DNA of 64,000 bases, taken from positions 434,001-498,000 of the forward strand of contig JAHBVR010000001.1 in the NCBI GenBank assembly GCA_019637395.1. Reading direction: 5' to 3'. Of this stretch, positions 1 through 16,916 are shown piece by piece. The stretch is from Vulcanimicrobiota bacterium. Lineage in GTDB: Bacteria > Vulcanimicrobiota > Xenobia > Xenobiales > JADMJV01. A model generated the notes under the pieces. The model made no database searches. It was given only the letters and a program-made list of their open reading frames with translations, and was not told the origin of the DNA. Position numbers and translations under genes: made by a program. Position 1 is the first letter of the stretch. Every line of letters begins with the position of its first letter.

Positions 1-619
1 CACATAGCTTCATTTCCTGGCCGTCTCCGACGTGATCGTCATATTCGGCATTGCCGCGCAGCGAGTTGCAATCGATTTGGGCGGCAAAGAGGTGATGGAG
101 GTCACCGCGGGGACTCTTCTTCTTGCTGAACCAGGACTGGGGAACGACGTGTTCGCAGTTGTACTGGCCCTCCTTGAGAGCCTTTCCCGCCCCCTGGTTG
201 GGCCCGTCTCCCGAGTAAATGCAGTAAATCTCTCCATCCTGGTGACGGTCGACCTCGGGGTAGAGATATTGCGCCGGGTCATAGTCCAGAGATTTGTGGG
301 TCTTCTGCACCAGCGAACTCAATTCCGAATAAAGTTCGCCGGGAGACATGGAGTCAAAGCGGGAAGAATCGCCGTAATATTTCTGGCGGGCGCTGGCGTC
401 GCTGCTGGCATCGTAGTATTTGCCGCCGGGGCGTGGTGCGGCTGCGGGCGCGCCGGCCGGATGGGAAGGCTGGGAATGTCCACCGCGCCGGAAGTCCAGA
501 TCGACTCGATCGGTTACGCCTTCCGGGTGTTTACACAGAGCTTCAGCGGCCGGGCGAGCCAGCCACCCCTTAAGCCCTGGAGCAATATTCCAGGCGGATC
601 CTACCGTCATTAAATTCAT
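1..619 (-). CDS. EndA/NucM-type endonuclease I, 3' end cut by window edge
   Basis: A nuclease of the endonuclease I family, which cleaves DNA and RNA non-specifically, usually outside the cytoplasm. 206 codons are visible and the frame runs off the left edge. The family signature is clear: NCEHVVPQSW (residues 154-163, general-base His157), then DLHHLFAA (173-180) and CNSLRGN (184-190) with the expected metal-binding Asn. There is no Sec signal peptide. A Pro/Ala/Gly-rich leader of about 65 residues carries TDRVDL (36-41), resembling the motif at the same place in the three C11 peptidases and the M4-like peptidase further right. The start is ATG 619 with GAGGGAA about 8 nt upstream. Transcription diverges from the ExoIII gene. 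The family call is strong; extracellular action is inferred. Confidence 0.88.
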   Translation of the reverse strand, partial: MNLMTVGSAWNIAPGLKGWLARPAAEALCKHPEGVTDRVDLDFRRGGHSQPSHPAGAPAAAPRPGGKYYDASSDASARQKYYGDSSRFDSMSPGELYSELSSLVQKTHKSLDYDPAQYLYPEVDRHQDGEIYCIYSGDGPNQGAGKALKEGQYNCEHVVPQSWFSKKKSPRGDLHHLFAAQIDCNSLRGNAEYDDHVGDGQEMKLC

Positions 620-691
620 GACAAACTTCCCTCTCGATGATACTCCCAGGAGGTGGGGCGAACCTCTCCAGGGCACACCTCTCACACCCCT

Positions 692-736
692 ACAATAAAC
701 CTGAAATTGTTACCTCAGGATTAGGAGAATATGAAC
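692..736 (-). promoter_or_regulatory. Candidate promoter of the EndA gene (GTTCAT box and TATTGT -10)
   Basis: Read on the minus strand, GTTCAT (736-731) is followed by an AT-rich second box (722-718). TATTGT (697-692) starts exactly 39 nt after the first G. The same spacing is found before the C11 peptidases B and C and the M4-like peptidase. The second box is the weakest of the set. On the plus strand the same AT-rich patch reads TACAAT and could serve the ExoIII gene, so the two promoters may overlap. Confidence 0.45.
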
Positions 737-761
737 GGACAACCAACCAGGAGCCTTTCAA

Positions 762-1541
762 ATGGCTGAGAACGGTGTGTCCATGCGTTTGGTCAGCTGG
801 AATATCAACGGTTTGCGCTCTGTCTTCAAAAAGAACTTCGTCAACTGGCTGGAGATCCACCAACCCGATGTGGTCGCCCTCCAAGAGATCAAGTGCGCGC
901 TGGCTCAGTTGGAGCCGGAGATGCTCAAACCGGCGGGCTATCACAGCTGGTTTTTTCCGGCTGAACGACCCGGCTATGCCGGCACCGCCCTCTACAGCCG
1001 GATCTCCCCCCTCAAAGTCGATTACGGTCTGGGAATGACCGAATTTGACCGCGAGGGTCGCAGCCTGACCGCCGAATTCGCTGACTTCGTTCTGGTCGGC
1101 GCCTACTTTCCCAACTCGCGCGGTCCAGGGCTACGCATCGATTACAAAATAGATTTCTGTGAAGCCATACAAAACCATGTCGAAAAGCTGGCCCTGCGAG
1201 GAAAGCCGGTTTTCCTGTGCGGAGACGTAAACATCGCCCACCAGGAAATCGACCTCTTCAACCCCAAAGGAAGCCGGCGACAAGCCGGCTTCTTGCCGCC
1301 GGAGCGGCAGTGGATGACGCAGATGCTGGAGCGCGGCCACCAGGATCTTTTCCGCCAGCAAAACCCCCAGCCGGAACAGTACACCTGGTGGAACCAGGCG
1401 CGCGACGCCCGGGGCCGCAACCGCGGCTGGCGCATCGACTACTTTCTGGGCAGTGCCGGCTTCGATTGGGACCATCGCTGCCGCCACTATCCTGAGGTGC
1501 TGGGCTCCGACCACTGCCCGGTTGAACTGGAACTTCTATAG
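762..1541 (+). CDS. xth: Exodeoxyribonuclease III (AP endonuclease)
   Basis: Repairs abasic sites and 3'-blocked ends in DNA. It is a full-length member (259 aa) of the ExoIII/exonuclease-endonuclease-phosphatase fold. Motifs in order: WNINGLRS near the N-terminus (Asn ligand), LQEIK (metal-binding Glu), GDVNIAHQEIDL (catalytic Asp and Asn), WRIDYFL, and GSDHCPVEL at the C-terminus (Asp-His pair). The ATG at 762 has AGGAG at 749-753 with 8 nt spacing; an internal ATG at 783 (MRLVSWN) would also give a complete domain. The 3' end overlaps the convergent membrane gene by 6 bp. Confidence 0.95.
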   Translation: MAENGVSMRLVSWNINGLRSVFKKNFVNWLEIHQPDVVALQEIKCALAQLEPEMLKPAGYHSWFFPAERPGYAGTALYSRISPLKVDYGLGMTEFDREGRSLTAEFADFVLVGAYFPNSRGPGLRIDYKIDFCEAIQNHVEKLALRGKPVFLCGDVNIAHQEIDLFNPKGSRRQAGFLPPERQWMTQMLERGHQDLFRQQNPQPEQYTWWNQARDARGRNRGWRIDYFLGSAGFDWDHRCRHYPEVLGSDHCPVELELL

Positions 1542-2300
1542 ACTGCTCTCGGGCTCCAGGGCTTGAACAGAGTTGGGTTCGACCGGGTCTCCCACATCAT
1601 CGTCACTGGCAAGCAGACGGCTGATCAACATCACCACGTAGAGTTGCGCCAGCAACGACTCCATAGCCAGCAAATTGCGACAAAAATGGCTGACCCCGGA
1701 AAGTTCGTTGTCTGCGCCGGTCAAAGTTGCAAAGCTGACGTAGAGCGCCTCGTGAAAGCCGATTACGCTCGCGGGTATATTGGGGCCCAGGGTGTCGGGC
1801 CGCAAGAGATGCACGAAATGTATCAGTTCTCCAAAGGCAATCCCCAGCATGATGTAGAGTCCCGCCGCCGCCCAGAGCTTGTCGGCGGCATTGCGTGGGC
1901 CGTGCACCAGATCGCGCAGACCCAGCCCAATCACCACCGCCTGAATGCCGACGGTAACCCCGTGCAGTAAACAGTTGACGGCAATTCCCCGCACCGGGTC
2001 CCAAAACAAATAGTTATAGGTTAGGGATGTGCTGACCACCATGATGGACAGAATCCCCAGAGTGCGGGGTAGCCATCGTTTGAACGTGAAGTTGCGCGAA
2101 AGATCCCAAATCAGCCCCAGGTAGACGATGCAGCAAAGCTGGAAGAGAAAGAAGGTTATACGCGTGTCGTTCAGCCAATCGTCGGTGAGCAAAGAAATCA
2201 CCAGCAAGATGGCCTGAGCGGCCACTACATTGCGGTAATCCTTACGCTTCTCTTCCTGGGACTCGGGACTGTAGAGTTTGCTGAGGGCCTGGCGAATCAC
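1536..2300 (-). CDS. Multi-pass membrane protein with a channel-like C-terminal pair of helices
   Basis: A 254-residue membrane protein with about six hydrophobic segments. The last part (HEALYVSFATLTGADNELSG, then a helix ending LYVVMLISRLLA) resembles the pore loop and second helix of two-TM potassium channels of the Ion_trans_2 type. The selectivity filter TVGYGD is replaced by TGADNE, so potassium selectivity is not supported. The start is GTG at 2300; an in-frame TGA lies upstream and there is no other start between. It is convergent with the ExoIII gene. Function unknown; a degenerate ion-channel relative is the best guess. Confidence 0.7.
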   Translation of the reverse strand: MIRQALSKLYSPESQEEKRKDYRNVVAAQAILLVISLLTDDWLNDTRITFFLFQLCCIVYLGLIWDLSRNFTFKRWLPRTLGILSIMVVSTSLTYNYLFWDPVRGIAVNCLLHGVTVGIQAVVIGLGLRDLVHGPRNAADKLWAAAGLYIMLGIAFGELIHFVHLLRPDTLGPNIPASVIGFHEALYVSFATLTGADNELSGVSHFCRNLLAMESLLAQLYVVMLISRLLASDDDVGDPVEPNSVQALEPESSL

Positions 2301-2359
2301 CCCTTTGTCTTTATCCGCGCGCTGGCCGGGCCCTTTGAAATTTTCTCATTTTTAGACAG

Positions 2360-2383
2360 AAAAAAGACCCGCCGGAGCGGGTC
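2360..2383 (-). terminator. Rho-independent terminator of C11 peptidase A
   Basis: On the minus strand a 7-bp stem GACCCGC/GCGGGTC with a 4-nt loop is followed by TTTTTT. It lies about 25 bp after the stop codon of the C11 peptidase gene. The plus-strand side also has CTCTTTT, so it may work weakly in both directions. Confidence 0.85.
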
Positions 2384-2408
2384 CTCTTTTCCTACGATTC
2401 AGCCGGTT

Positions 2409-4010
2409 TTAGCCGACCTTCTTGATCATCTCGTCCCACTTGGTGTCCTGGGAAAGCTTGACCGAGTCGTAGCTGGCGAACTCGATGCGATTCTGCGAAT
2501 CCTTGTTCATGTTCGGGATGTCGTAGACCGGGCGGCCCGTCTGATTGCTCGGTCCGGCCTGGTTGGACGGGTCGATTTCCTCGCCGCCACCCTGCTGGGC
2601 ATGGAACTGCTGGTTGAGGGCGATGATTTGCGGCATCGCCTGGCTCAACATCTGCAACTGATCGGGGCTCATCCCCATCACCATCAACTGCACCAACTGC
2701 TGCATCTGCTCATCGGACAGACCCGGGCCGCCTTCACCCTGGACGTTGGTTCCGCCCGTCATTCCGGCCTTGGCGTTGATTTCAACGTTCAGGCCCTTGG
2801 CGTTGGGGTACTTGGAGCTGTGTTGTTCGGCGATGACCGCTTCGCCCATGGCTGCCTTGACTTCATCCGCGGCTTCCCCGATCTTGCCACCGAACTTCTT
2901 ACCCGCCAGCTCCACGAAGTGGCCCATATCGGCGAACTCGTAAAACTTCTGGGTCTTGAGTTTGATGACGGCGAAGTCTTTCTTGGTCTTGCCACTGTCG
3001 AGCACGGCGGTGGCAAACTTGTCCATAGCGGCGGTCACAGCCGGCATCTTATTGAGGTCGATGGCCGACATCGTGCCCAGATCGCGCTGGTGGCCTTCGG
3101 CCATTTTGACGATGCCCTTGGCCATGTCGGCGGGGGTCAGCGGATCGCGGGCGCGCAGAGCGGCTGCGGCGTAATTGAGCACTTCGCCGGTGAAGACGCG
3201 GCTGTTGCGGTTGGACTGCTTGCCGCCACCGGGGAGAGCTTCGTCATACTGCCAGCCGGCGCCGCCTTCGACTTCCTCGGAGGCCACCATGTAGTCGGCC
3301 GCACCGCTGATCTGGTGGGCCACTTCGGCCGAGGCCATCAAGCACTCGTCGAAACCGACCACGTCGATTTTCTGGCCCGACTTCTCGACGGCCTTTTTGA
3401 GACCGGCTTCGATGTCGGCGATGTTCATCCAGCTATTCTGGCTTTCCGACTGGTTGGCTCCCTGCCAGCCGCCGCCATGGTCGGACATGATGACCATGAA
3501 GTGCTTGGCGGGATAGTTCTTCTGAGCCCAGGCAATGGACTCGGCCAGGTTATCGGCGCTGCCCATATCGTGGTCAGGGCCGAGATCCTTCACCACCGGC
3601 GAGGTCAGACCTTCGGTCTGGTCGGCTTCCAGCTTCATGCGAACGACGTTACCACCCTTCGGCTGGTGGCTGGTTTCGACGATGACGTTCATCTGGTCGG
3701 TACTGCCGACACGCTCGGCTTCGTCGAGGTCGGACTGCAGGAATTCATAAAGATTATTGTCGGAGACGGAGTAAACCAATACGGTCCATTCCTTCAGCTC
3801 CGGCTGCTGCGGAGGAGCCGGCTGTTGGCCCTGCGCGGGCGGAGCGGGCTGCTGGGCGGGCGGAGCGGGCTGCTGCGGCGGAGCCGGCTGCTGCTGGCCG
3901 AGAACGACGCTGTCGGAAGGAGCGGGCGCGGGCTGGCCGGAGGGAGCTGCCGAGCGGGCGGGCGCGTTGCGCAGGGCCGGCTGGGCGCTGTTAAGAGAGC
4001 TGATATTCAT
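2409..4010 (-). CDS. C11 (clostripain-family) cysteine peptidase A
   Basis: A 533-residue peptidase of the clan CD clostripain family; known members cut after Arg or Lys. The domain begins at WTVLVYSVSDNNLY (75-88). Catalytic His178 is in SDHGGGW and nucleophile Cys223 in GFDECLM, followed by VASEEVEGGAGW (242-253). The leader has no Sec signal: residues 1-31 are Ala/Ser/Pro-rich, SDSVVLG lies at 32-38, and a Pro-Gln linker runs to about 70. Unlike its two paralogues it carries an insertion (about 417-494) rich in Met and Gln. All three paralogues end in a conserved W-D-E-M-[IL] tail. Only a weak ribosome-binding site is visible. It is divergent from the ATPase/TPR regulator. Confidence 0.92.
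   Translation of the reverse strand: MNISSLNSAQPALRNAPARSAAPSGQPAPAPSDSVVLGQQQPAPPQQPAPPAQQPAPPAQGQQPAPPQQPELKEWTVLVYSVSDNNLYEFLQSDLDEAERVGSTDQMNVIVETSHQPKGGNVVRMKLEADQTEGLTSPVVKDLGPDHDMGSADNLAESIAWAQKNYPAKHFMVIMSDHGGGWQGANQSESQNSWMNIADIEAGLKKAVEKSGQKIDVVGFDECLMASAEVAHQISGAADYMVASEEVEGGAGWQYDEALPGGGKQSNRNSRVFTGEVLNYAAAALRARDPLTPADMAKGIVKMAEGHQRDLGTMSAIDLNKMPAVTAAMDKFATAVLDSGKTKKDFAVIKLKTQKFYEFADMGHFVELAGKKFGGKIGEAADEVKAAMGEAVIAEQHSSKYPNAKGLNVEINAKAGMTGGTNVQGEGGPGLSDEQMQQLVQLMVMGMSPDQLQMLSQAMPQIIALNQQFHAQQGGGEEIDPSNQAGPSNQTGRPVYDIPNMNKDSQNRIEFASYDSVKLSQDTKWDEMIKKVG
3795..3900 (-). repeat. Low-complexity repeat coding the Pro/Gln linker of C11 peptidase A
   Basis: Imperfect tandem copies of a GC-rich unit (GGCGGAGCGGGCTGCTG and variants on the plus strand) encode the AQQPAPP-type linker. 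Equivalent repeats encode the linkers of the paralogues near 13385-13480 and 16565-16675. Such tracts are prone to length change by slippage. Confidence 0.75.
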
Positions 4011-4049
4011 GTTGTGGTTACCCCATTGCTTGGTGTTGTGTGTAACTCT

Positions 4050-4093
4050 ACGCTAGAGCATCAAGGGACGGCAGAGGTTGCTGGAATGTGAAC
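4050..4093 (-). promoter_or_regulatory. Candidate promoter of C11 peptidase A
   Basis: Minus-strand GTTCAC (4093-4088) and a CAAC box (4080-4077) make a 17-nt element beginning GTT and ending AAC. TAGCGT (4055-4050) starts 38 nt after the first G. A CA-rich leader (ACACACAACACC) follows. The element lies in the 111-bp region shared with the divergent regulator gene. Confidence 0.5.
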
Positions 4094-4121
4094 TGAGGTA
4101 CAAAGCGAACCGCTCTTAATC

Positions 4122-6116
4122 ATGTTGCCCCGTCGCCCCAAATTCGTAGCGGCCGGCCGCGAGCAAGAATTGGCCGAGTTGCTGGATACCGCCGTGCAGG
4201 GCGGAGTGCTCTTGCTGGAGGGAGCACGCGGCAGTGGCAAGACCAGTCTGGCCCTGGAGTGCGCCCATCGGCTACCGCGAGCCCGCTGGCTCTCGTGCTG
4301 GCCGCAACTCAGCCTGCCTCATCCCGACCCGCTGGAGCAGCCGCTTTTTCTCGATCATATCGAATGTTTGCAAGATGCTCCTGACTGGTTGGCCTGGTGC
4401 TCCCAGCATCTGCGGGGCTCCGGCCTGATCGCCATCGCCGACCGCCGCTTGCGCCTTCCCACCGGTTGGCGCGCCCAACGGTTGCTTTTGCAAGGTTCGG
4501 CTCGCTGCGCCGAGCTGCCACCCGAGAGTCAGATCCTGTCTCTCCCTTTGCCGCCCGTCCGCATCCCGGCCGAGTGCGGGCTGGCCCTGCTCGAAGAGCA
4601 ATTCCTGATTTGCGAGAGCGAAGGCTGGATGAGCCTGCATCCCGATCTTTGCCGGCCCCTCACCCCCGAATTGCACCGCCGAAGCCTTCGCCTGCTGCAG
4701 GAACTACCGGAAACTCCCATCTGGGTCGAGACGGTTTTCCAACATCTGGTGGGACTCGAGGATTGGAACCGCGCCCTGGAGCACTTTCAGCGCTACGCTC
4801 CGGGACTGCAGCAAGGCGGCGAATTCACTCGAGTTTTGCGGCTGAGCGGACGGTTGTTGGAGCACGATCCCCGGCTGAGCGCGGCCCACTACGCTCAGGC
4901 CGAAGCCCACGCCGCTCAAGGCCGCCTCGAACAAGCTCGCGCCGACCTGGACAGCGTGCTGCGCTGGGGCGAACAGGAACTTCAGCTACGGGCGCTGGCC
5001 GCCCGTTGTCATCTGCATCTGGACCTGGGACAACCGCAGGGTGCCGAGGCCGATGCTCAAGCGGCGCTGGAACTGGCCGACCGGCTGGGCGGACGCCAGC
5101 CGGCTCGCATCAAAGCCTGCAATGGTCTGGCCCGAGTCCACAATCTGCGCGGCCAGCCCGACCAGGGAGAGACATGGTCGCGGCGCGCCCTGCAACTGGC
5201 CCAGCAATGCCTCGACCCGAAAGGCGAAGCCTATGCGTTCTTCATTCTCGGCCAATCCCTGGCCGATCAGGAAAATTGGCAGTCCAGTCTGGAGCATTGC
5301 CAAAAAGCGCTGCAATTAGCTCATCAACAAGGAGAAATACGGCTGACGCTGCTGGCCCGCTACTGGATGGTAGCCGCCTTTCTACACTTGGAGCGCCTGA
5401 CCTGGGCCGAAGAACTGCTGCAGGATTGCCGAATCGAGGCTTCCCATTTCGCCGATCTCAAGATGCTGGTCCTGGGTGAGCTGATGATGGCTCAACTGCA
5501 GTTGTGCAAAGAAGAGCTGGAGGCTGCGGAAAGACACCTGGCCGAAGCGGAAGCGCTGGTGCAACGATGCGGCTTTCCCCTGCTGGCCATCCGCGGCCTG
5601 TTGCTGAAGCAGAGTCTGCGCCAGGATTCCGCCTGGGGAGAGCGGGCCCGGCGGCTGGCGGAAAATGTGGGACTGGCTTTGCCTGGCCAGTCCACTCAAC
5701 TGGTATGGACGCTCGGCCAGCATCGCGAGTTGACCGCCGCGGCCGTGGCCAGTCTGCGCGCCGCCAGCCATAGTTACGATCTCTGGGTCGACCTGGAACG
5801 AGCTCAAGTGCGCGAGCGGCAGCTTGGCGAACTTCCCTTGCTCTCCAAGAAGATCCCCATGAAACTATTGCTGCAGTTGATGGAGCGGCCCGGCCAGGCC
5901 CATTCGGCCGAAAGCCTTTTTGCGACCGCCTGGAAGCATCCCTACGAGGGCGAAAGCAGCTCTGCTCAGGTGCGCAAGAATGTGGCGACGTTGCGTAACC
6001 TGCTCGAACCCGACCGCCAAAAACCACGCTACATTCTTATGCGTGAGCATGCCTACGGACAGGCGGGCGGATACTTTTTCAGCCAGCAGGCCAGCTACTG
6101 CGTCATTCACCCTTGA
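4122..6116 (+). CDS. ATPase-TPR transcriptional regulator with C-terminal winged helix
   Basis: A 664-residue cytoplasmic regulator. A P-loop (GARGSGKT, 34-41) opens a short AAA/STAND-like ATPase domain. Residues of roughly 200-540 form helical TPR-like repeats (for example DPRLSAAHYAQAEAHAAQG). The last 110 residues look like an OmpR/SARP winged helix (SAESLFATAWKHPYEG, QVRKNVATLRNLL, then the YILMREHAYGQAGGYFF wing). This order recalls MalT- and AfsR-like proteins, but with the DNA-binding domain at the C-terminus. It is divergent from C11 peptidase A, and the intergenic region holds the GTTCAC element, so it is a candidate activator of the peptidase set; that link is inference. The 3' end overlaps the convergent MBL gene by 14 bp. 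Confidence 0.8.
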   Translation: MLPRRPKFVAAGREQELAELLDTAVQGGVLLLEGARGSGKTSLALECAHRLPRARWLSCWPQLSLPHPDPLEQPLFLDHIECLQDAPDWLAWCSQHLRGSGLIAIADRRLRLPTGWRAQRLLLQGSARCAELPPESQILSLPLPPVRIPAECGLALLEEQFLICESEGWMSLHPDLCRPLTPELHRRSLRLLQELPETPIWVETVFQHLVGLEDWNRALEHFQRYAPGLQQGGEFTRVLRLSGRLLEHDPRLSAAHYAQAEAHAAQGRLEQARADLDSVLRWGEQELQLRALAARCHLHLDLGQPQGAEADAQAALELADRLGGRQPARIKACNGLARVHNLRGQPDQGETWSRRALQLAQQCLDPKGEAYAFFILGQSLADQENWQSSLEHCQKALQLAHQQGEIRLTLLARYWMVAAFLHLERLTWAEELLQDCRIEASHFADLKMLVLGELMMAQLQLCKEELEAAERHLAEAEALVQRCGFPLLAIRGLLLKQSLRQDSAWGERARRLAENVGLALPGQSTQLVWTLGQHRELTAAAVASLRAASHSYDLWVDLERAQVRERQLGELPLLSKKIPMKLLLQLMERPGQAHSAESLFATAWKHPYEGESSSAQVRKNVATLRNLLEPDRQKPRYILMREHAYGQAGGYFFSQQASYCVIHP

Positions 6117-6924: not shown

Positions 6925-7007
6925 TCTATTCAGGTTAACGGGAAGGCTGAAGTTTCTTCAATATCCCGGCGTACTGAAAGAATCGGTATTGGCGTACAGG
7001 ATTCCTT

Positions 7008-8471
7008 TTAAGCCACCACTACGTTGCGCTCGATGACGGGTTGACCGTCCTTCCAGCGCAACACGCCGATATAGGGATTGCCGTTCTTGTCGATCAGGTC
7101 CTTGTCGCTGAGGCGCTGATGCGGCTCGGTGTAAAGGATGCGGCCGGCGTCGATGAGGTGCTTGATGTCGGCGCGCAGGTCGGAGTCGTCGTCGGCGAAG
7201 CGAGCCGAGTCGGTGTCGCGGGGGACTTCCACCAGCGCACCGGAGAAGTTGCCGAAATCACCCACCAGCGGCACCAAATCTTTCTGCACCGCGGCCGCCT
7301 CTTCGGTCAGCGAGCGGCTGACCGATTGGCTGGGTGGTAGGGAAGACGGCGTAAAATCGGCCGGCAGAATCTCGCGATTCTTGTAAACCTGAGTGATCAG
7401 GTCGACGTGCTTGCCGCCGTTGTCTCGATCGGAGGCGACGAAGGCCTTGGCCATATCTTTGTAGGTGAAGTCGAAGCGCGGGGCGGCCTTGACCAGCCGG
7501 CCCAGCATGCGCAAACCTTCGTTGGAGGCTTCACGGATGGCTTGAGCGGGCTCCATGCCGGCGGCGCGATTCTCATTGACCAGGCCGGTGAAGACGTCAT
7601 AGAAAGCGCCGGTCCAGAGGCGCGAGTAGTTGTGCACCTCACTGCCCAACTGGTTGGGGTCTTCGGGCTGACTCTCCAGCGATTTCGGGTCGGCCCACTT
7701 AAAGCTGTTGATGGCGGTCCGGGTGTAGTCACCGCCGGTGCGATTCTTACCGGAGGTATTGTTGATGGTGATGCCAAGTTCCTCGCCCAGGTTAGCGGCC
7801 ATGTTCGGCTTGGTCATGTCACCGCCGGTCTGCTCGACCACTCGGGCCAGCACGCGGTCGTCCTGCACACTCATCACCAATGCCAGCATATCACCGAAAG
7901 ACTCGTGGAAAGCGCCGGCGTCGGTTCTCCAGTTCATCAGATAGGCGGGGCGGAAACCATCGAGAATGGCATGGCCCACTTCGTGGGAAACCACTTCACC
8001 GGAATCTCCGCTATGCACCACCAGATTGGTCTTGGGGTCGGTGGAGTGGAAGAAATTGACGCTGCCTTCACCCCTCTGATAGTAGGCGTTGAGCATTTCC
8101 CCGGCGTCGGGATTGACGTCGAGCTGGGGCTTCTTGAAGGCCCAGCTGATGTTCATGCCGGTACCTTCCTCGAAAAACTTGATGGTGCGGGCCACCGCCG
8201 AAAAAGCGTTGGCGGCGTGAAAACCGGGGGTGCCCTGTGCGTAGATGAACTTGCCCTCGCCGCTCGGCTCCAGAGCCTCGTTGAGGCGGGCCTTGTCGAC
8301 AGCCGGGCCGACGTCGCCGGACTTCAAGCCAGCGACGGTATAGGTGCCGGGCTCGAGAACGACCTTATCCTGAGGGTTCTGAGAGAACTCGGCCTGGGCG
8401 GTTTTGCCGGGAAGGCTGCGCGGTTGGGCGGGGGCGATTCTGTGGTTGTGTGTGTGAGTATTGCAGAACAT
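7008..8471 (-). CDS. M4-like zinc metallopeptidase (thermolysin-type gluzincin) without Sec signal
   Basis: A 487-residue zinc endopeptidase. SHEVGHAILDG gives the HExxH helix (His163, Glu164, His167) and HESFGDM supplies the third ligand Glu190, the gluzincin arrangement of M4/M36 peptidases. There is no signal peptide and no thermolysin-type propeptide; the leader is Pro/Ala-rich with QDKVVLE at 34-40, matching the motif position of the C11 peptidases. The start ATG 8471 is chosen because it puts the motif at the same depth as in the other proteins and because the upstream gene ends at 8552. A region after about residue 430 (PPSQSVSRSLTEEAAAVQ) is outside the core. The predicted -10 is so close that the mRNA could be nearly leaderless. 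Confidence 0.87.
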   Translation of the reverse strand: MFCNTHTHNHRIAPAQPRSLPGKTAQAEFSQNPQDKVVLEPGTYTVAGLKSGDVGPAVDKARLNEALEPSGEGKFIYAQGTPGFHAANAFSAVARTIKFFEEGTGMNISWAFKKPQLDVNPDAGEMLNAYYQRGEGSVNFFHSTDPKTNLVVHSGDSGEVVSHEVGHAILDGFRPAYLMNWRTDAGAFHESFGDMLALVMSVQDDRVLARVVEQTGGDMTKPNMAANLGEELGITINNTSGKNRTGGDYTRTAINSFKWADPKSLESQPEDPNQLGSEVHNYSRLWTGAFYDVFTGLVNENRAAGMEPAQAIREASNEGLRMLGRLVKAAPRFDFTYKDMAKAFVASDRDNGGKHVDLITQVYKNREILPADFTPSSLPPSQSVSRSLTEEAAAVQKDLVPLVGDFGNFSGALVEVPRDTDSARFADDDSDLRADIKHLIDAGRILYTEPHQRLSDKDLIDKNGNPYIGVLRWKDGQPVIERNVVVA

Positions 8472-8477
8472 ATCCAG

Positions 8478-8522
8478 AGTATGCCACTCAAGCAGGCCTG
8501 TGCATGTGAAAAGCTCGTGAAC
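8478..8522 (-). promoter_or_regulatory. Candidate promoter of the M4-like peptidase
   Basis: Minus-strand GTTCAC (8522-8517) and TTCACAT (8510-8504) form a direct repeat of TTCAC with an 11-nt period. CATACT (8483-8478) begins 39 nt after the first G, the same distance as in the other members of the set. Confidence 0.5.
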
Positions 8523-8551
8523 GGACCGCCGCTTAAAAAAAGTTGAAAGCG

Positions 8552-9385: not shown

Positions 9386-10694
9386 GAGTAATTCCCACGC
9401 CTTCAGGCTCGACTTTCTTAGGTTCGAAATAATCGAGGAAGTCCTGGTCCTTCCAGGCCATCCAGGCCACCGCGAAGGAGGGCAGCGTGCACACGGCAAT
9501 GTAGCCGAAAAAACCTTTGAAGCCAAGTGCTTGCTGTATATAGCCAGTGGCCATTTGCGGCAACATAACGCCCGCAGCCATAAATCCGGTTGCGATGGCG
9601 TAGTGAGACGTCTGCAATTCCCCCCGAGTGAAGTACATCAGATAGAGCATAAAAACGGTGAAGCCGAAGCCGTAACCAAACTGCTCTATGAACAGACAGA
9701 CACTAACTGCACTAACGTCGTTATTCTGCGTGAAAGCCAGATAGAGGAAAGCCAGGTTGGGCAAATGCATGATGAAAATCATCGGCCAGTACCATTTCTT
9801 GACCCCATACTTCGACACAAGCCACCCGGCCAAGATACCCCCGACAATAATTCCGATCATGCCAAAGGTCCCGTAGGTAACTCCTACCATTTGCGTGCTT
9901 AGAGCCAGACCTCCTTTATCCAAAGGGCTTTTCAAGAATGGAGCAACCATCGCAAGGACCTGACCTTCAGCCAATCGGAAAAGCAGTATAAAAGCAATCG
10001 CTTGCCCAACGCCGGGCTTCTTAAAGAAGGTCATGAACGTCGCGAGATAACCGCGAACAAACTGGGGAACACTAGGAACCTCACGAGCCTTGTCTACCGA
10101 AGGCTTGGGAAGAGTCAAAAAGTGATAGATTCCAAGTATCAGGAAGAGAGCACCTGGAATCGTTATCATCAGGGCCCAGCCGTCAAATTTCCCGTGATTG
10201 AGAGTCAAAGCTCCGGCGATCCACACGAGAGCACCCTTCGCGATAAGATTCGACAGTTTATATGCCGTGGAGCGAATCCCGGTAAAGCCGGCCTGATCCG
10301 TCTCATTCAAGGCCAACATATAGAACCCGTCTGCGGAGATATCCTGGGTGGCGGATGTCGCAGCCAGCACCCAGAAACAAACCTGGGTCCAAAATAGCCA
10401 GGATGGGGACTTTATTGCCGCCGCCAAGCCTAACAGAGTAACGGCCAGAACGATTTCCGTGAACACAATCCACCAGCGCTTCGTTTTAGCGAGATCGATC
10501 AACGGACTCCATAGCGGCTTGACCACCCAGGACAGATACATACTGCCAGTCACCAGAGCCATCTTCTCGGGGGACAAACCCAGATCCGTGTACATCAGTT
10601 TAGAGGTATCTGTAACGATTGCGTATGGAATTCCCTCAGCAAAATAGAGAGAGGGAACCCAGATCCAGGGGGAGAGTCGGCGGCCGTTTTCCAT
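9378..10694 (-). CDS. AmpG-like MFS permease
   Basis: A 438-residue, 12-helix transporter of the AmpG/PAT branch of the MFS. Diagnostic stretches are SLYFAEGIPYAIV (helix 1), VVKPLWSPLIDLA (loop 2-3) and ATQDISADGFYML (helix 4). AmpG imports anhydro-muropeptides; other members carry different substrates, so specificity is open. The coding sequence between about 9600 and 10650 is visibly richer in A/T and in unusual codons (ATA, ACT, GTA) than the flanking genes, which suggests recent transfer. The last codons overlap the candidate start of the acetyltransferase gene. It is divergent from the subtilase gene. Confidence 0.85.
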   Translation of the reverse strand: MENGRRLSPWIWVPSLYFAEGIPYAIVTDTSKLMYTDLGLSPEKMALVTGSMYLSWVVKPLWSPLIDLAKTKRWWIVFTEIVLAVTLLGLAAAIKSPSWLFWTQVCFWVLAATSATQDISADGFYMLALNETDQAGFTGIRSTAYKLSNLIAKGALVWIAGALTLNHGKFDGWALMITIPGALFLILGIYHFLTLPKPSVDKAREVPSVPQFVRGYLATFMTFFKKPGVGQAIAFILLFRLAEGQVLAMVAPFLKSPLDKGGLALSTQMVGVTYGTFGMIGIIVGGILAGWLVSKYGVKKWYWPMIFIMHLPNLAFLYLAFTQNNDVSAVSVCLFIEQFGYGFGFTVFMLYLMYFTRGELQTSHYAIATGFMAAGVMLPQMATGYIQQALGFKGFFGYIAVCTLPSFAVAWMAWKDQDFLDYFEPKKVEPEGVGITPE

Positions 10695-10785
10695 CCCGAG
10701 GAGTTACCCCAGAACCCGTGTCGCCAATCTGGATCGGATCCGGATCTTGGATGGATCGCCCGGGCCAGGCTAGCCTGTGGGAGTT

Positions 10786-12138
10786 ATGAAGATACGCACA
10801 CAACCCTCCGCACCCAACACACGCTTCCGTCTGCAGGACTCCCCGGGCGAAGCCTCCCCCCTCGACCAATGGGCCCTGGACCGCGTCGACGCCACTGCCG
10901 CCTGGCAGCGCTCGACGGGCGCCGGCGGCCCGCTGGTGGCCGTGCTCGACACCGGCCTCGACTGCACGCACCCCGACCTGCGCAAAAACCTTTGGACCAA
11001 TCCCGGCGAAATCCCGGGGAATGGCCGCGACGACGACGGCAATGGCGTCATAGATGATGTGCATGGTTTTAATGCGGTCGCCCAAAGTGGAGACATTCAC
11101 GACGGCGGCGAGCACGGAACCCATGTGACCGGCATTATCGCCGCCGACGGTGCGGTGCGCGGCCTGGCCCACGGAGCCACCGTCATGGGCATCAAGATCT
11201 TCGATGACAATGGCTACACCGACGTGGGAGCGGTTTGCCGGGCCATCGACTATGCGCAGCAACAGGGCGCTCGCATCCTCAACTGCTCGTGGGGCGGCGC
11301 CGTCGAGTTCAACCAGGAGCTGTATGAAAAAATGCGGGATTTCCCGGGCCTGATTGTCTGCTCGGCCGGCAACGGAGGCTCCAACAGCGATGAAGTGCCA
11401 CACTATCCCAGCGGCTTTGATCTGCCCAACCTGATTTCGGTGGCGGCCAGCAGCCGTCAGGACAAAATCGGGTTCACCTCCTGCTACGGCCCTCAGTCGG
11501 TGGACCTATCGGCTCCCGGAGAGCAAATTCTCTCCACGGTGCCGGGGGGCCGCCATAAGGTCAAGTCGGGCACTTCGCAGGCCGCTCCGCAGGTGACGGC
11601 CACCGCGGTGCTGCTGGCCGCTCTCCAGCCCGAGGCCACCCCGGCTCAACTGAAGGCGCAAATCCTGGCCGGCGTGGACCGGCTTCCCCAGTTGCAAGGA
11701 AAGGTGGCCAGCGGCGGCCGCCTCAACGCCGCCGGTGCCCTGGCCGACCGCCACCACGGCCCTCACCTGCTCCACCAGTTCTATGAGGATATTCAGGACG
11801 AGCGCCACTGGGCCGTGCAAATGGATAACGGGCCCGACGACGGCGACCCCAGGCCAGGACGATTGGATCTGGGAGACCAGCGCGTGCTGCTGAGCGAGCA
11901 GGGCCTGGCTATCTCGGAGAGCAATATGCTGGTCTGGCTGGAAGCCGAGCAGCAGGGCGAGCGCCTGATCATCGACCAGCGCGGCTTCGACCGGGATCGC
12001 GAAGGCTTCTACAGCTATCCCCTCCACCTGGAAGGCGGCCCCGACCTGCCCTTCGACCCCCCCGACGCGGAGCGAATTCCGGCCAGCCAATGGGAAACGG
12101 CCCGAGCCGAGTTCGAAGCCGCCTGGTCCAACCCCTGA
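10786..12138 (+). CDS. S8 subtilisin-like serine peptidase without Sec signal
   Basis: A 450-residue subtilase with the complete triad: Asp55 (VAVLDTGLD), His110 (GGEHGTHVTG) and Ser265 (KSGTSQAAP), and the oxyanion Asn197 (SAGNGG). It starts directly with the mature domain after about 35 residues; there is neither Sec signal nor I9 propeptide. The C-terminal 120 residues form an extra domain of unknown function. ATG 10786 is preferred over GTG 10777 because GGGAG lies just before it, although the spacing is short. It is divergent from the MFS gene and convergent with C11 peptidase B. It does not carry the DxVxL motif or the GTTCAC promoter of its neighbours. Confidence 0.92.
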   Translation: MKIRTQPSAPNTRFRLQDSPGEASPLDQWALDRVDATAAWQRSTGAGGPLVAVLDTGLDCTHPDLRKNLWTNPGEIPGNGRDDDGNGVIDDVHGFNAVAQSGDIHDGGEHGTHVTGIIAADGAVRGLAHGATVMGIKIFDDNGYTDVGAVCRAIDYAQQQGARILNCSWGGAVEFNQELYEKMRDFPGLIVCSAGNGGSNSDEVPHYPSGFDLPNLISVAASSRQDKIGFTSCYGPQSVDLSAPGEQILSTVPGGRHKVKSGTSQAAPQVTATAVLLAALQPEATPAQLKAQILAGVDRLPQLQGKVASGGRLNAAGALADRHHGPHLLHQFYEDIQDERHWAVQMDNGPDDGDPRPGRLDLGDQRVLLSEQGLAISESNMLVWLEAEQQGERLIIDQRGFDRDREGFYSYPLHLEGGPDLPFDPPDAERIPASQWETARAEFEAAWSNP

Positions 12139-12177
12139 GAGGCACCACCGGTGGTGGCACCCGGTCAGCCTGGTACC

Positions 12178-12212
12178 AAAAGAAGGCCCGGAGGGGCACA
12201 CGCCTCCGGGCC
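12178..12212 (-). terminator. Terminator of C11 peptidase B
   Basis: A 10-bp stem GGCCCGGAGG/CCTCCGGGCC with an 8-nt loop. On the minus strand it is followed by TTCTTTT, about 27 bp after the peptidase stop codon. It may also stop readthrough from the convergent subtilase gene. Confidence 0.82.
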
Positions 12213-12238
12213 GACGGGCTCTCTCAACGAAACTTTAA

Positions 12239-13594
12239 CTAGCGGACCTTCTGGAGCATTTCGTCCCAGCGGGTGTCCTTGGCGAACTTGGTGTTGCTGT
12301 ATTTGTCGAAGGAGAGGCGGTTGATATCGCCCTCGTCCATATTGGGAATATTCAACAAGCTGGCCTGGCGGTCGATCTCGATGTTCAGGCCGCGAGCGTT
12401 AGGGTAGCTGGCGCTGTGCTGGTTGGCCACCAGCGCGTCGGCCAGAGCGGTTTTGATGCCGTCAGCGGCTTCCTTGACCGCGCCACCGAACTTCTCGGAG
12501 GCCAGGTCGACGAAGTGAGCCATATCCGCGAAGTCGGCGAACTTCTGGGCTTTCTGGGCCACCGACTGGAAGTCGGCCTTGGTCAGACCGCTATCCAGCA
12601 CCACGCCGGCAAAATTGTCGAGGGCGGCGCTGACGGCCGGCATCTTGTTCAGGTCCACGGCCGACATGGTGCCCAGATCGCGCTGGTGGCCTTCGGCCAT
12701 CTGCACGATGCCCTTGGCCATCGATTCGGGGGTCAGCGGCTCGCGGCTGCGCAAGGCGGCGGCGGCATAGTTGAGCACCTTGCCGCTGAGCACACGGCTG
12801 TTGCTGTTGCTGGTCTTGGCCCCACCCAGGGCCTGGTCGTACTGCCAGCCGGCGCCGCCTTCGGTCTCTTCGGAAGCGACCAGGTAGTTGGCATAGGGCT
12901 GAAGCTGGTGGGCCACTTCGGTGGAGGCCATCAAACATTCGTCGAAGCCGAGCACGTCGATTTTCTTGCCGGTCTGTTCCTGGGCTTGACGCAGACCATC
13001 TTCCAGGTCACTCAAGTTCATCCAGCTATCGGTGCTCTCCGCGTGATGAGCCCCCTTCCAGCCGGCACCGTGGTCGGAGCAAATCAGCATAAAGTTCTTG
13101 GAAGGATACTCCTTCATGGCCCAGGCGATGGAGTCGGCCAGGCTGGACGACTTGGCCATGTCATGTTGGCGACCGAGATCTTGCACCACCGGCGACTTCA
13201 GGCCGGGAGTGGCGTCGGTTTCCAGCTTGAGGCGAACCACGTTGCCGCCCCTGGGCTGGTGGCTGGTTTCGGCCAACAGGTTCATCTCGTTGGTCGAGCC
13301 GATACGCTCGGCTTCGTCGAGATCCATCTGCATATAGCGGTAAAGATTGTTATCAGAAACGGAGTAAACCAGCACGGTCCAGTCTTTCAGCTCGGGCTGC
13401 GGAGGCGCCGGAGGCTGCTGAGGCGGTGCCGGCTGCTCGGCCGGCGGTTGTTGAGCCGGAGGCGCCGGCTGCTGCTGGCCGCAGAAAACCACGCTGTCGC
13501 CACAGACCGGCGCCTGTTCAGCGGCGGGGGCGGAGGCGCGGGCGGCCGAGGCGGCCACGAAAGGACGAGCTTGAGATACAGAAGAAAGAGTCAT
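12239..13594 (-). CDS. C11 (clostripain-family) cysteine peptidase B
   Basis: A 451-residue paralogue of peptidase A. The leader is almost the same as that of peptidase C (MTLSSVSQARPF, then Ala-rich), with GDSVVF at 32-37 and a Pro-Gln linker to about 67. The core begins at WTVLVYSVSDNNLY. Catalytic His175 lies in SDHGAGW and Cys220 in GFDECLM. DHGAGW replaces the DHGGGW seen in A and C. The Met-rich insertion of A is absent. AGGGAG lies 9 nt before ATG 13594. The gene has its own terminator and candidate promoter, so it is probably a single-gene unit. B and C are closer to each other than to A, which indicates a recent duplication. Confidence 0.92.
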   Translation of the reverse strand: MTLSSVSQARPFVAASAARASAPAAEQAPVCGDSVVFCGQQQPAPPAQQPPAEQPAPPQQPPAPPQPELKDWTVLVYSVSDNNLYRYMQMDLDEAERIGSTNEMNLLAETSHQPRGGNVVRLKLETDATPGLKSPVVQDLGRQHDMAKSSSLADSIAWAMKEYPSKNFMLICSDHGAGWKGAHHAESTDSWMNLSDLEDGLRQAQEQTGKKIDVLGFDECLMASTEVAHQLQPYANYLVASEETEGGAGWQYDQALGGAKTSNSNSRVLSGKVLNYAAAALRSREPLTPESMAKGIVQMAEGHQRDLGTMSAVDLNKMPAVSAALDNFAGVVLDSGLTKADFQSVAQKAQKFADFADMAHFVDLASEKFGGAVKEAADGIKTALADALVANQHSASYPNARGLNIEIDRQASLLNIPNMDEGDINRLSFDKYSNTKFAKDTRWDEMLQKVR

Positions 13595-13630
13595 GAGGAA
13601 GATCTCCCTGGTTTTGTGTGGTGTAGGGGT

Positions 13631-13675
13631 ATCTTAAATCTTGACTCGTCCTGAACATGTTGATTCCGTGTGAAC
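13631..13675 (-). promoter_or_regulatory. Candidate promoter of C11 peptidase B
   Basis: Minus-strand GTTCAC (13675-13670) and TCAACAT (13663-13657) are followed by TAAGAT (13636-13631), which starts 39 nt after the first G. A CA-rich leader (CTACACCACACAAAACC) follows before the ribosome-binding site. Confidence 0.55.
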
Positions 13676-13716
13676 GGGTCTCCATCGAGTCCACTACCAG
13701 GTCGATCGGAACGAGG

Positions 13717-14655
13717 TTAGACGGCTCCAGCTACTCCGGCAGCCCATTGTTTGGCGGCCTCACCGCTGTAGTGAATGCCGTCACCCCCACTGTATTTGGG
13801 CGTAAACGGCGCGGACGAAACATAGCTGCCGTAGGGGGCCACGGCCGCCTTCATATCTTCGTCGAATTTTTGCAAGGAAGAGCGATTGCCCTCGTCCTGG
13901 CGAGTGGTGGGAGGGCCCACCCAGGTAATTTTGATGCCGTGTTTCTTGGCGATCTGACCGATTTCGTCGACCTGCTTTTTGATCCCGGAGGGACCGGCAC
14001 CGCGGAAGTTGGCGCCCAGATTGACGATGATGGTGTCGGGCTTATCTTCGTTGATCAAGTCTTCCAGCCTGGGGGTGGCGTGCGCGGCCGTCTTCTCGGT
14101 TTGCCCATTGGCCTTGTGATCAGCATAGCCGACGGTGGTGCCTTTGCCGGTGATGAAATTGTCGGCAGTGGCGCCGCTACTGCCGACGGTGTGCACACTG
14201 GCACCCTTGGCGCGCAGCAGACGGTCGAGTTCGTCACCGAAAGCTCCGGCCGTATGCGAGTCTCCGATGACCAGCACCTTGCTGCCGGACTTGACCTGGC
14301 CCCCGCTGGGAGCAGGAGACTGCTGAGCCACGTCCCCGCCACCCGAACTACCGCCGGCCGCGTTCACGGCGGTGGTGTCACCGCCAGCCAGAGCTTGCGA
14401 CAAACTCGAGGCCCCGGCCGTGCCGTTGCTCATCAGGCCCATCAACATCATCGACATCAATTGGAGCATCTGGCCCATGAGTTGCTGGCTGCCCGCCAAC
14501 AGCGAAGAAGTCGGAGCCATTCCCTGCACTCCCAGGCCTTGGGAGCAACGCAAGCTGGCCAAATCCCCGCCTGGCAAGAGTGGCGCGACCGCGGAACCGC
14601 TAAAGGGACTGACTCCACCGAGCTGGTTGAGCGGATCGAGTGAGGTGAACGCCAT
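13717..14655 (-). CDS. SGNH/GDSL hydrolase with Met-rich N-terminal segment
   Basis: A 312-residue protein. The C-terminal half is an SGNH hydrolase: VLVIGDSHT (nucleophile Ser133), a Gly-containing second block (VGSSGATADN), VNLGANFRG (Asn block) and GDGIHYS (Asp-His pair). Members are esterases or lipases; the substrate is unknown. The N-terminal 120 residues contain a striking Met-rich hydrophobic helix (about 59-75) and a Gly/Ala/Ser linker. There is no cleavable signal peptide. ATG 14655 has a textbook AAGGAGG 7 nt upstream. Its upstream region has a loose relative of the GTTCAC/AACAT element (CTTTCAT, then CGAACAT), poorer than in the peptidase genes. Confidence 0.87.
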   Translation of the reverse strand: MAFTSLDPLNQLGGVSPFSGSAVAPLLPGGDLASLRCSQGLGVQGMAPTSSLLAGSQQLMGQMLQLMSMMLMGLMSNGTAGASSLSQALAGGDTTAVNAAGGSSGGGDVAQQSPAPSGGQVKSGSKVLVIGDSHTAGAFGDELDRLLRAKGASVHTVGSSGATADNFITGKGTTVGYADHKANGQTEKTAAHATPRLEDLINEDKPDTIIVNLGANFRGAGPSGIKKQVDEIGQIAKKHGIKITWVGPPTTRQDEGNRSSLQKFDEDMKAAVAPYGSYVSSAPFTPKYSGGDGIHYSGEAAKQWAAGVAGAV

Positions 14656-14773
14656 CGAAAGACCTCCTTGGGATGTAATCAAACTCTACCAAGAATCTCT
14701 TAACGCAGGATGACCGTTTTGAGTGATGTTCGGCAACATGAAAGAGCGTATTTAGCCGGGTTTTATCCGCCCA

Positions 14774-14808
14774 GAAAAAAAGCCCCCCGAACAGCGGGAG
14801 GCCTTTTT
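14774..14808. terminator. Bidirectional terminator after the DUF5684-like gene
   Basis: The stem GCCCCCCG/CGGGAGGC has one mismatch and a 5-nt loop. It is flanked by a run of seven A on the left (T-run on the minus strand) and CTTTTT on the right. It lies 15 bp past the stop of the minus-strand membrane gene. Confidence 0.8.
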
Positions 14809-14822
14809 CCAGGAGACAGCTC

Positions 14823-15218
14823 TTAGAAGCGACTCATACCCGTGCCGCCACCGAGTTCGTCCAAACCTTTGTACTCGGCATCGCCGAAGCCAAGCGCCAG
14901 AATCAAGAAGGGTGCGGCGGGAGTGAACATCCCTATAGTCCAAAGCACGCTCTTGCCGAAGGCCATGAAGATCCGATGGAATGTATAGATCCCAACAAAT
15001 AAGCCAAGGAATGGCACGAAGAGAAGCAATACCGTCCAGATAGGCAATCCAGCCATTCGGGCCATAACTACGTTACTGTAGATGGGAACCAGGCAGGCCC
15101 ATCCAGGCTGACCCGCCTTGGTAAACATCCGCCAAAGCCCGGCGATCATAACTGCACAGAAAAACAGCACGACCAGGTAGAACATCATCAAGATCATTCC
15201 GCCGCCAGAGTCTTGCAT
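14823..15218 (-). CDS. Small membrane protein of the DUF5684 type
   Basis: A 131-residue protein with four hydrophobic segments. Family-like blocks are WRMFTKAGQPGWACLVPIYS and the closing ALGFGDAEYKG, as in DUF5684 proteins, which often sit next to signal peptidases or secretion genes. No enzymatic motif is visible. ATG 15218 has GGGGAGG 7 nt upstream. It stands between the SGNH hydrolase and C11 peptidase C with a terminator on each side, so it seems to be an independent unit. Function unknown. Confidence 0.8.
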   Translation of the reverse strand: MQDSGGGMILMMFYLVVLFFCAVMIAGLWRMFTKAGQPGWACLVPIYSNVVMARMAGLPIWTVLLLFVPFLGLFVGIYTFHRIFMAFGKSVLWTIGMFTPAAPFLILALGFGDAEYKGLDELGGGTGMSRF

Positions 15219-15346
15219 TACAAACCTCCCCTACGTGTTGGGCGTCGTTGACCCCCGAATACTGGTAGCAATTCCCTAGGACTTTAGGATGGCCTTTCCA
15301 GCCCTGTTCCAAAGGCGAGTTTTTTTCGGAGTCCCCCGCGTACACA

Positions 15347-15383
15347 CAAAAGGGGACCAGGCCGACTGACCTGGTCCCTTTTC
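15347..15383 (-). terminator. Terminator of C11 peptidase C
   Basis: A 9-bp stem GGGACCAGG/CCTGGTCCC with an 8-nt loop, followed on the minus strand by CCTTTTGTG, just after the peptidase stop. The plus-strand side ends in CCCTTTTC, so some bidirectional activity is possible. Confidence 0.8.
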
Positions 15384-15400
15384 AGGAGGAAAACCTCACT

Positions 15401-16783
15401 CTAGCGGACTTTACGCAGCATTTCATCCCAACGGGTTTCCTGGGCCCACTTCTGGTCCTTGTATGGAGTGGTGTTGATGCGATCGCGATCCTCCTGGCTC
15501 ATGTTGGGGATGTCGGAAGGACCGTTCTCGACGAAACCGGCCTGGCGGTTCAATTCGATGTTCAAGCCCTTGGCATTGGGATACTTGGTGCTGTGCTGCT
15601 CGGCGACCACGGCTTCGCTCATGGCGGCCTTCACCTGGTCGGCGGCTTCGGCGATCTTGCCCCCGAACTTCTGGCCGGCCAACTCGGTGAAGTGGCCGAG
15701 GTCGCCGAAGCGGTAGAACTTCTGGGTCTGCTGAGCGACCGGAGCGAAGTCGGCTTTGGTCAGGTCGCTGTCAAGAACGGCGCCGGCGAAGTTGTCGACG
15801 GCGGCACTGACGGCGCCCATTTTGTTGAGGTTGATGGCGGACATCACACCCAGGTCACGCTGGTGACCTTCCGCCATCTGCACGATGCCTTTAGCCATCG
15901 ACTCGGGAGTGATGGTGTCACGAGCCCGCAACGCGGTGGCGGCGAAATTCAGCAGCTTGGGGTTGAGCACGCGGCTGTTGCCGTTGGTGGTCTTGGCACC
16001 GCCGAGGGCTTCGTCATACTGCCAGCCGGCGCCGCCTTCGACTTCTTCCGAAGCGACCAGGTAGTCGGCGCAGCCTTGCAAAGCGTGAGCCACTTCGGTG
16101 GAGGCCATCAAGCACTCGTCGAAACCGAGCACGTCGACCTTCTTACCGGTGAGTTCCTGAGCGCCCTTGAGACCGGCTTCGATGTCGGAGATATTCATCC
16201 AACTGTTGTTGGACTCGGACTGGTTGGCGCCTTGCCAACCGCCGCCGTGGTCGGAAAGGATGCACATAAAGTGCTTGGAGGGGAACTCCTTCATCGCCCA
16301 GGCGATAGACTCGGACAGGCTCTTGGACTGGCCCATGTCGTAGTTTTTGCCCAGATCCTGCAGCACCGGTGACTTCAGGCCGGGGGTGCTGTCGGTCTCG
16401 AGCTTGACGCGCACGACGCTGCCGCCGCGCGGTTGGTGGCTGGTCTCGGTGAGCAGGTTCATCTCATTGGTCGAGCCGATGCGCTCGGCTTCATCGAGGT
16501 CGCTCTGCATGTAGGTGTAAAGATTGTTGTCGGATACGCTGTAGACCAGCACCGTCCACTCCTTCAGCTCCGGCTGCTGCTGGGCAGGCGGCTGCTGCGC
16601 CGGCGGCTGGGGCTGCGTGGGCGGTTGCTGGGCCGGCGGTTGCTGGGCCGGCGGAGCCGGCTGCTGCTGGTTGAGAACGACGCTGTCGCCGGCTACGGGA
16701 GCTTGTTCAGCGGCGGCGGCCGAAGCGCGCGCGGACGAAGCTGCGATGAAAGGACGGGCTTGGGATACAGAAGAGAGAGTCAT
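15401..16783 (-). CDS. C11 (clostripain-family) cysteine peptidase C
   Basis: A 460-residue third paralogue. Residues 1-31 nearly repeat peptidase B, GDSVVL is at 32-37, and the Pro-Gln linker reaches about 70. Catalytic His179 is in SDHGGGW and Cys224 in GFDECLM. The C-terminal tail has DIPNM and TRWDEMLRKVR, both conserved in the paralogues. There is no Sec signal. ATG 16783 is preceded by AAGGGGA at about 12 nt; a three-codon ORF (ATG ATC CAA TGA) overlaps the start on the same strand. It has its own promoter-like element and terminator. Substrate preference (Arg/Lys) is known for the family and not proven here. Confidence 0.92.
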   Translation of the reverse strand: MTLSSVSQARPFIAASSARASAAAAEQAPVAGDSVVLNQQQPAPPAQQPPAQQPPTQPQPPAQQPPAQQQPELKEWTVLVYSVSDNNLYTYMQSDLDEAERIGSTNEMNLLTETSHQPRGGSVVRVKLETDSTPGLKSPVLQDLGKNYDMGQSKSLSESIAWAMKEFPSKHFMCILSDHGGGWQGANQSESNNSWMNISDIEAGLKGAQELTGKKVDVLGFDECLMASTEVAHALQGCADYLVASEEVEGGAGWQYDEALGGAKTTNGNSRVLNPKLLNFAATALRARDTITPESMAKGIVQMAEGHQRDLGVMSAINLNKMGAVSAAVDNFAGAVLDSDLTKADFAPVAQQTQKFYRFGDLGHFTELAGQKFGGKIAEAADQVKAAMSEAVVAEQHSTKYPNAKGLNIELNRQAGFVENGPSDIPNMSQEDRDRINTTPYKDQKWAQETRWDEMLRKVR

Positions 16784-16825: not shown

Positions 16826-16870
16826 ATGATAAAGCGCGTACCCGGCCGCAAATGTTGAATTCTTGTGAAC
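16826..16870 (-). promoter_or_regulatory. Candidate promoter of C11 peptidase C
   Basis: Minus-strand GTTCAC (16870-16865) and TTCAACAT (16859-16852) are followed by TATCAT (16831-16826), starting 39 nt after the first G. The TTCA[AC] halves form a direct repeat with a 10-nt period. A CA-rich leader (TTACACAACACACC) follows. Confidence 0.55.
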
Positions 16871-16916
16871 GCGGCAGCAGTGAAAATATTGCGAAAAGCT
16901 TAAATACCCCTGAAAA

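Follow-up and report, generated by a model that had tools for sequence, protein, structure and literature searches.

The known leader most similar to the one reported here belongs to FlgM, the anti-sigma-28 factor and a late substrate of the flagellar type III secretion system (T3SS). Our subject is an N-terminal leader carried by hydrolases that are encoded in a 64,000-nucleotide stretch of a Vulcanimicrobiota bacterium (GenBank assembly GCA_019637395.1, contig JAHBVR010000001.1, positions 434,001 to 498,000; hereafter, the window). E. coli FlgM (MSIDRTSPLKP...SVTLSDAQ) shows the same layout as these leaders, with an M-x-I start, a long disordered Pro/Ser/Thr leader, and V-x-L-S near residue 40; FlgM itself is exported independently of Sec, and its N-terminus can take foreign proteins out via the flagellar gate (PMC7911332). 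The leaders described here, in contrast, precede large enzymes of many folds. Type III effectors of Pseudomonas syringae share with them an aliphatic residue 3, the lack of acidic residues in the first 12 positions, and a polar, disordered start. Three compositional rules, including serine content, were described for these effectors (PMC3338616), and our leaders follow the two that the comparison covers (aliphatic residue 3 and acid-free start). However, the conserved D-x-V-x-L is not part of the P. syringae rules, there is no known host, and no injectisome, translocon, or CesT-type chaperone was identified here (in the CesT search all controls stayed silent, so that it carries no information). 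The Campylobacter Cia proteins and Yersinia YplA are non-flagellar proteins directed through the flagellar gate by N-terminal sequence (PMC2764114), but those bacteria build real flagella, whereas genes for filament, hook cap, and stator were not found here. Buchnera keeps the basal body and export genes without a filament (PMC8109811); it has, however, a tiny genome and no identified cargo, compared to a large genome with a long list of candidate cargo in our case.

An earlier note on this DNA had singled out a short D-x-V motif near the N-terminus of five hydrolases without signal peptides. We confirm and extend that observation: the motif is genuine and wider than first described. It lies at residues 36–41 in the EndoI-family nuclease, 32–37 in the C11 (clostripain-family) peptidases A, B, and C, and 34–39 in an M4-like metallopeptidase. 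A heuristic predictor found no N-terminal signal peptide in the five proteins, also when alternative starts were read, and none of their in-frame upstream starts adds a Sec signal. The note's view that the motif spans three unrelated folds without shared descent holds for C11 versus EndoI versus M4-like, but not within C11, given that C11-A and C11-B are tandem paralogues of C11-C (68–73% identity to C11-C, with alignable leaders); the independent cases are therefore three (C11, EndoI, and M4/M36-like) and not five.

The genome search for the motif that the earlier note had suggested covered 2.43 Mbp of the 7.66 Mbp host genome (Candidatus Eremiobacterota; 97.9% complete) and 2186 genes from a home-made caller. 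The bare motif was enriched only about 2-fold at residues 30–40, too weak to count as evidence by itself, whereas it is clearly non-random once conditioned on the leader. D-x-V-x-[LIVFM] at residues 15–45 occurs in 18/159 proteins with a polar A/P/S/Q/N/T leader and in 52/1783 elsewhere (Fisher 6e-6); permuted residue orders of the motif reach at most 8 in leader proteins compared to 18 for the true order, and within-leader shuffles average 2.4, with 0/2000 reaching 18. The same fixed test applied to 400 kb of a genome from another, distant family of the phylum (G018) yielded 4/11 vs 7/276 (shuffle mean 0.2). The motif is also associated with an aliphatic amino acid at position 3 combined with an acid-free stretch from residue 2 to 12 (16/46 vs 81/1011, p=8e-7), a link that persists without the five founding proteins (p=2e-5) and is borderline in G018 (2/9 vs 4/128). 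Alignment of 34 leaders, mostly from unrelated proteins, gave the consensus MxI...P...P...DxVxL, and C11 orthologues keep D33 and S34 invariant while the rest of the leader varies; the leader of C11-C is conserved in the loci L017 and L019. The leaders are classed as disordered and non-Sec by composition, by the lack of a hydrophobic core (heuristic), and by low confidence across residues 1–70 of the AlphaFold model of C11-C, which is moderate overall (pLDDT 56). The leader is thus bipartite: M-x-[I/V/L] with few acids and 20–40 disordered Pro/Ala/Ser/Gln residues are followed by a strand-like D-x-V-x-[LIVFM], often then by Ser/Gly. This leader class is almost certainly real.

Dozens of proteins that are otherwise unrelated bear the leader, most of them degradative hydrolases that lack Sec signals. 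From the motif list, 22 leader-plus-motif proteins beyond the five were picked by eye and then domain-scanned, and 12 of them carry hydrolase-type domains compared to 2/20 random proteins (p=0.0025), namely M41, RNB, DHH/DHHA1, GHL10, HAD phosphatase, DUF885, lipase, S8 (twice), M48, alpha-amylase, and C11, some of these assignments (DHH) being weak. When looser leaders are included, the carriers also comprise another amylase, two P450s, an M36 peptidase, and a protein resembling peptidyl-arginine deiminase. Hydrolases are therefore enriched among the carriers but are not the only ones: P450s, a UVB-sensitive-like protein, and several proteins without assigned function carry the motif or its looser form. 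In this genome, the S8, C11, amylase, and lipase families mostly divide into members with a Sec-like signal and members with the leader, although exceptions occur.

Many leader genes share a PHO-box-type promoter. Upstream k-mers gave TTTCAG, and site reading then gave a direct repeat with an 11-bp period, TTTCAGG-N4-TTTCAGG. With at least 12/14 matches, it occurs upstream of 9/22 leader-plus-motif genes and 26/2009 others (odds ratio 53, p=2e-11); the consensus was read off the same genes that were counted, so that the p-values are somewhat optimistic, which weakens the case to that extent. The excess remains when the five founding genes are left out (7/18 vs 26/2008) and when the count is restricted to the first genes of operons (8/20 vs 19/933), and in the leader-composition class, at a threshold of at least 11/14, the counts are 25/163 vs 44/1868. 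In a period scan the excess peaks at 11 only, and permuted half-sites show no comparable excess. TAnnnT stands exactly 9 nt downstream of the box in 18/33 leader-like sites, compared to 0–2 at other offsets; this fixed spacing supports the box independently of how it was selected. Sites with at most one mismatch number 34 in the genome and 0 for the reversed control. In a comparison of 58 genomes, we counted 365 boxes (34 for the control) in the 26 that encode C11 peptidases and 34 boxes (10 for the control) in the other 32; these counts ignore relatedness, with C11 genomes often being larger. Signal peptides are fewer in box genes (4/35 vs 578/1996, p=0.02), a difference that loses its significance when the threshold is loosened; we do not rely on it. 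No sigma-28 promoter sites were found upstream of leader genes. Taken together, many leader genes are very probably co-regulated.

The PHO box, the operator of PhoB/PhoP, is 18 nt long and comprises two 7-nt direct repeats with a 4-nt spacer (PMC4415409). Our box has this OmpR/PhoB-type layout (7-4-7 direct repeat, 11-bp period, overlapping the −35 region, with a −10 just downstream), but the half-site is TTTCAGG, not CTGTCAT or GTTCACC. The sampled third of the genome contains no pst operon, and phosphate control has no support there. In about half of the box sites the −10 ends just 6–9 nt ahead of the ATG (e.g., C1:501472, C1:8403, C9:17536, C2:225700, C3:130415, and others), a spacing which suggests that these genes may yield leaderless transcripts.

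Export gate, basal body, and C-ring genes are all encoded in the genome. A flagellar-type cluster at C34:95922-113844 comprises FlgB, FlgC, FliE, FliF, FliG to FliJ, a lytic transglycosylase, FliK, an FlgE-like hook/rod protein, FliM, FliN (twice), FliO to FliR, FlhB, and one of two full-length FlhA proteins (for FliH, FliI, FliJ, FliN-R, and FlhB, the names rest on position and sequence instead of a profile), whereas FlgF, FlgG, and FlgJ are encoded on C2. Flagellin (PF00669), the hook cap FlgD (PF03963), the plug domain of the stator protein MotB (PF13677), and FlgM (PF04316) were not detected in the genome, with positive controls, and at 97.9% completeness assembly gaps are unlikely to account for four separate losses. 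Flagellin, FlgD, and MotB, the marks of an ordinary motile flagellum, were thus not found, and a basal body that persists with neither filament nor stator naturally suggests an exporter. The close relatives G031, G037, and G025 have flagellin and FlgM, and probably carry a second, true flagellum. Across the phylum sample, FlhA is present in 137/148 genomes and flagellin in 66/146; flagellin-less export gates are common in Eremiobacterota.

Additional FlhA-related sequences were observed. The other full-length FlhA is an orphan (C21:61640-63757) without adjoining export genes, and same-genus genomes have similar second copies. About 15 FlhA C-terminal (substrate-docking) domains stand alone, some after a Sec-like signal or unrelated N-termini (e.g., C1:526095, C12:512298, C17:9070, C2:299825, C2:300894, C21:49215, C32:179157, C34:19890, and C36:57529).

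The resemblance to FlgM and the agreement with two P. syringae rules make the case for a type III route. Under this model, an OmpR/PhoB-family response regulator would switch on the leader genes together, and the leader would act as an export signal that passes the enzymes, in unfolded form, to a type III export gate of the flagellar type. The species would have kept this gate although no filament, hook cap, or stator is detectable, and digestive enzymes would be delivered outside the cell in one step. We regard the type III route as plausible, if short of probable, and the entire chain (leader class, co-regulation, and type III export of digestive enzymes) as slightly more tentative. More tentative again is the generalization that large-genome Eremiobacterota may possess a secretion regulon in which one response regulator governs dozens of proteases, nucleases, glycosidases, and lipases with an FlgM-like leader, exported via a basal body without filament or motor. 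The earlier note had proposed a short targeting tag, and the support for a functional tag is good (the tag occurs genome-wide, recurs in a second family, is hydrolase-rich, and is linked to the box); the leader class and the regulon are the firm results, and the export route is what we infer.

Several results weigh against the type III route. No export was seen. Leader genes lie no closer to FlhA-like genes than expected by chance, and the basal-body operon has no box (7/14 at the flgB promoter), so that neither gene linkage nor co-regulation ties the leaders to the export apparatus. Some lineages that lack C11 and have few boxes or none also possess FlhA, and the gate therefore does not predict the leader. 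The FlgM profile (PF04316) matched none of the 34 leaders, which gives no indication that they belong to the FlgM family, and no family in Pfam and NCBIfam scans covers the leader. E. coli FlgM has S where the leaders usually have D, as well as an acid at its residue 4, and the authors of the P. syringae rules show that these are no strict requirement and transfer poorly (PMC3338616).

The missing neighbourhood and regulatory tie between leaders and gate would suit an alternative in which the leader directs export through some other Sec-independent machine, possibly one not yet described, or serves as a tag for loading into vesicles or particles. The leader and regulon evidence fits this explanation equally, and the genome was not surveyed for further secretion systems. 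However, the genome encodes an export gate that has no filament and no other known cargo. The particle idea of the earlier note was tested narrowly: the phage-tail sheath PF04984, searched as a sign of extracellular contractile injection systems, is absent from the genome (other sheath families were not searched), a result that speaks against simple loading into a contractile particle. We consider this alternative rather unlikely. Less likely again is that the leader serves inside the cell as a docking or regulatory segment (in scaffold assembly, or keeping enzymes inactive until lysis) with the box marking a mere stress or starvation regulon, even though typical cytoplasmic enzymes are found among the carriers (RNB exoribonuclease, AAA-M41, P450, and HAD phosphatase) and the PHO-box layout suits a nutrient-starvation regulon. 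Clostripain, EndoI, and M4 relatives in other organisms are exported enzymes, and the S8, C11, amylase, and lipase members with Sec-like signals in this genome suggest exported work as well. That the five motifs reflect coincidence and paralogy in low-complexity leaders draws on the weak enrichment of the bare motif and on three of the five proteins being paralogous; the permuted and shuffled controls, the second family, the invariance among orthologues, and the association with a promoter box at the DNA level make this highly improbable.

In the open-access literature, we found no prior account of the leader, nor of C11 peptidases in this phylum; new here are the genome-wide bipartite leader, a regulon of its carriers defined by a promoter box, and, as candidate route, an exporter of the flagellar type without a filament. 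Together, leader and box provide a concrete list of candidate cargo for the flagellin-less gates of the phylum. Should the leader prove functional in a model flagellar T3SS, this would demonstrate a use of type III export in bulk digestion, contribute a modular secretion tag, and account for how bacteria of this group could release large hydrolases that lack Sec signals. If the type III model is true, it would describe a bulk digestive pathway beyond host-directed virulence.

Within the window, the leader genes form an island (coordinates are those of the window). The EndoI-family nuclease (1–619, minus strand; PF04231, 1.1e-28; TDRVDL at the motif) extends beyond the first base of the window, its 3′ end lying outside (C1:433693-434619 in the genome). 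Peptidase C11-A (2409–4010; SDSVVL), C11-B (12239–13594; GDSVVF), and C11-C (15401–16783; GDSVVL) are all on the minus strand and match PF03415 (7.6e-34 for C11-C; also by alignment for C11-A and C11-B). The M4/M36-like metallopeptidase (7008–8471, minus strand; QDKVVL) was assigned by family alignment, in which HExxH and the additional E are conserved (HEVGH...GAFHE, with HEVGH and GAFHE both kept); the protein itself has no Pfam match, one paralogue matches PF02128, and the AlphaFold model of the M4-like protein is poor (pLDDT 35, from two sequences). The island encodes two further signal-less enzymes whose leaders are similar in style but lack the strict motif: an S8 subtilase (10786–12138, plus strand; PF00082, 7.2e-44) with the leader MKIRTQPSAPNTRFRLQDSPG, and an SGNH/GDSL-like hydrolase (13717–14655, minus strand; PF04311, 7e-9; PF00657, 9e-6) with a Gly/Met/Gln-rich N-terminus.

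Upstream of these genes, the box is present as TTTCAGGTTTATTGTAGG before the EndoI gene (689–706, minus strand; 12/14) without a clear −10, and as TTTCAGGGGTATTTAAGC before C11-C (16898–16915, minus strand; 12/14, and 13/14 in the L017 orthologue), where the −10 element TATTTT lies 9 nt downstream (16883–16888, minus strand); both box and −10 of C11-C are conserved in L017. A weak box, TTTCAACTTTTTTTAAGC, precedes the M4-like gene (8531–8548, minus strand; 10/14) and is identical in L017, and the upstream regions of C11-A, C11-B, S8, and SGNH score below the threshold. Comparison of upstream sequences from the window, L017, L018, and L019 revealed a second conserved element before C11-C, GTTCACAAGAATTCAACAT (16852–16870, minus strand). 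This second element (GTTCACAnnnATTCAACAT) is also found before C11-B (13594) and, as a variant, before the M4-like gene (8471), on the minus strand, and resembles the Streptomyces PHO-box half-site GTTCACC.

Two minor observations concern signal-less proteins more widely. A leader protein at C1:352312 (DRLELS) matches the T3SS translocator family NolX weakly, at a score below the threshold, and by eye it shows a Cys...His pattern like that of papain. A second signal-less family has Gly/Asn/Pro-rich starts and Met/Gln-rich amphipathic stretches, and is loosely harpin-like; its members are found at C1:106326, C17:18538, C3:47774, C2:142747, and 13717–14655 of the window, as well as at C1:86954 and 346466 of G018, and two of them (C2:142747 and G018:86954) carry the TTTCAGG box.

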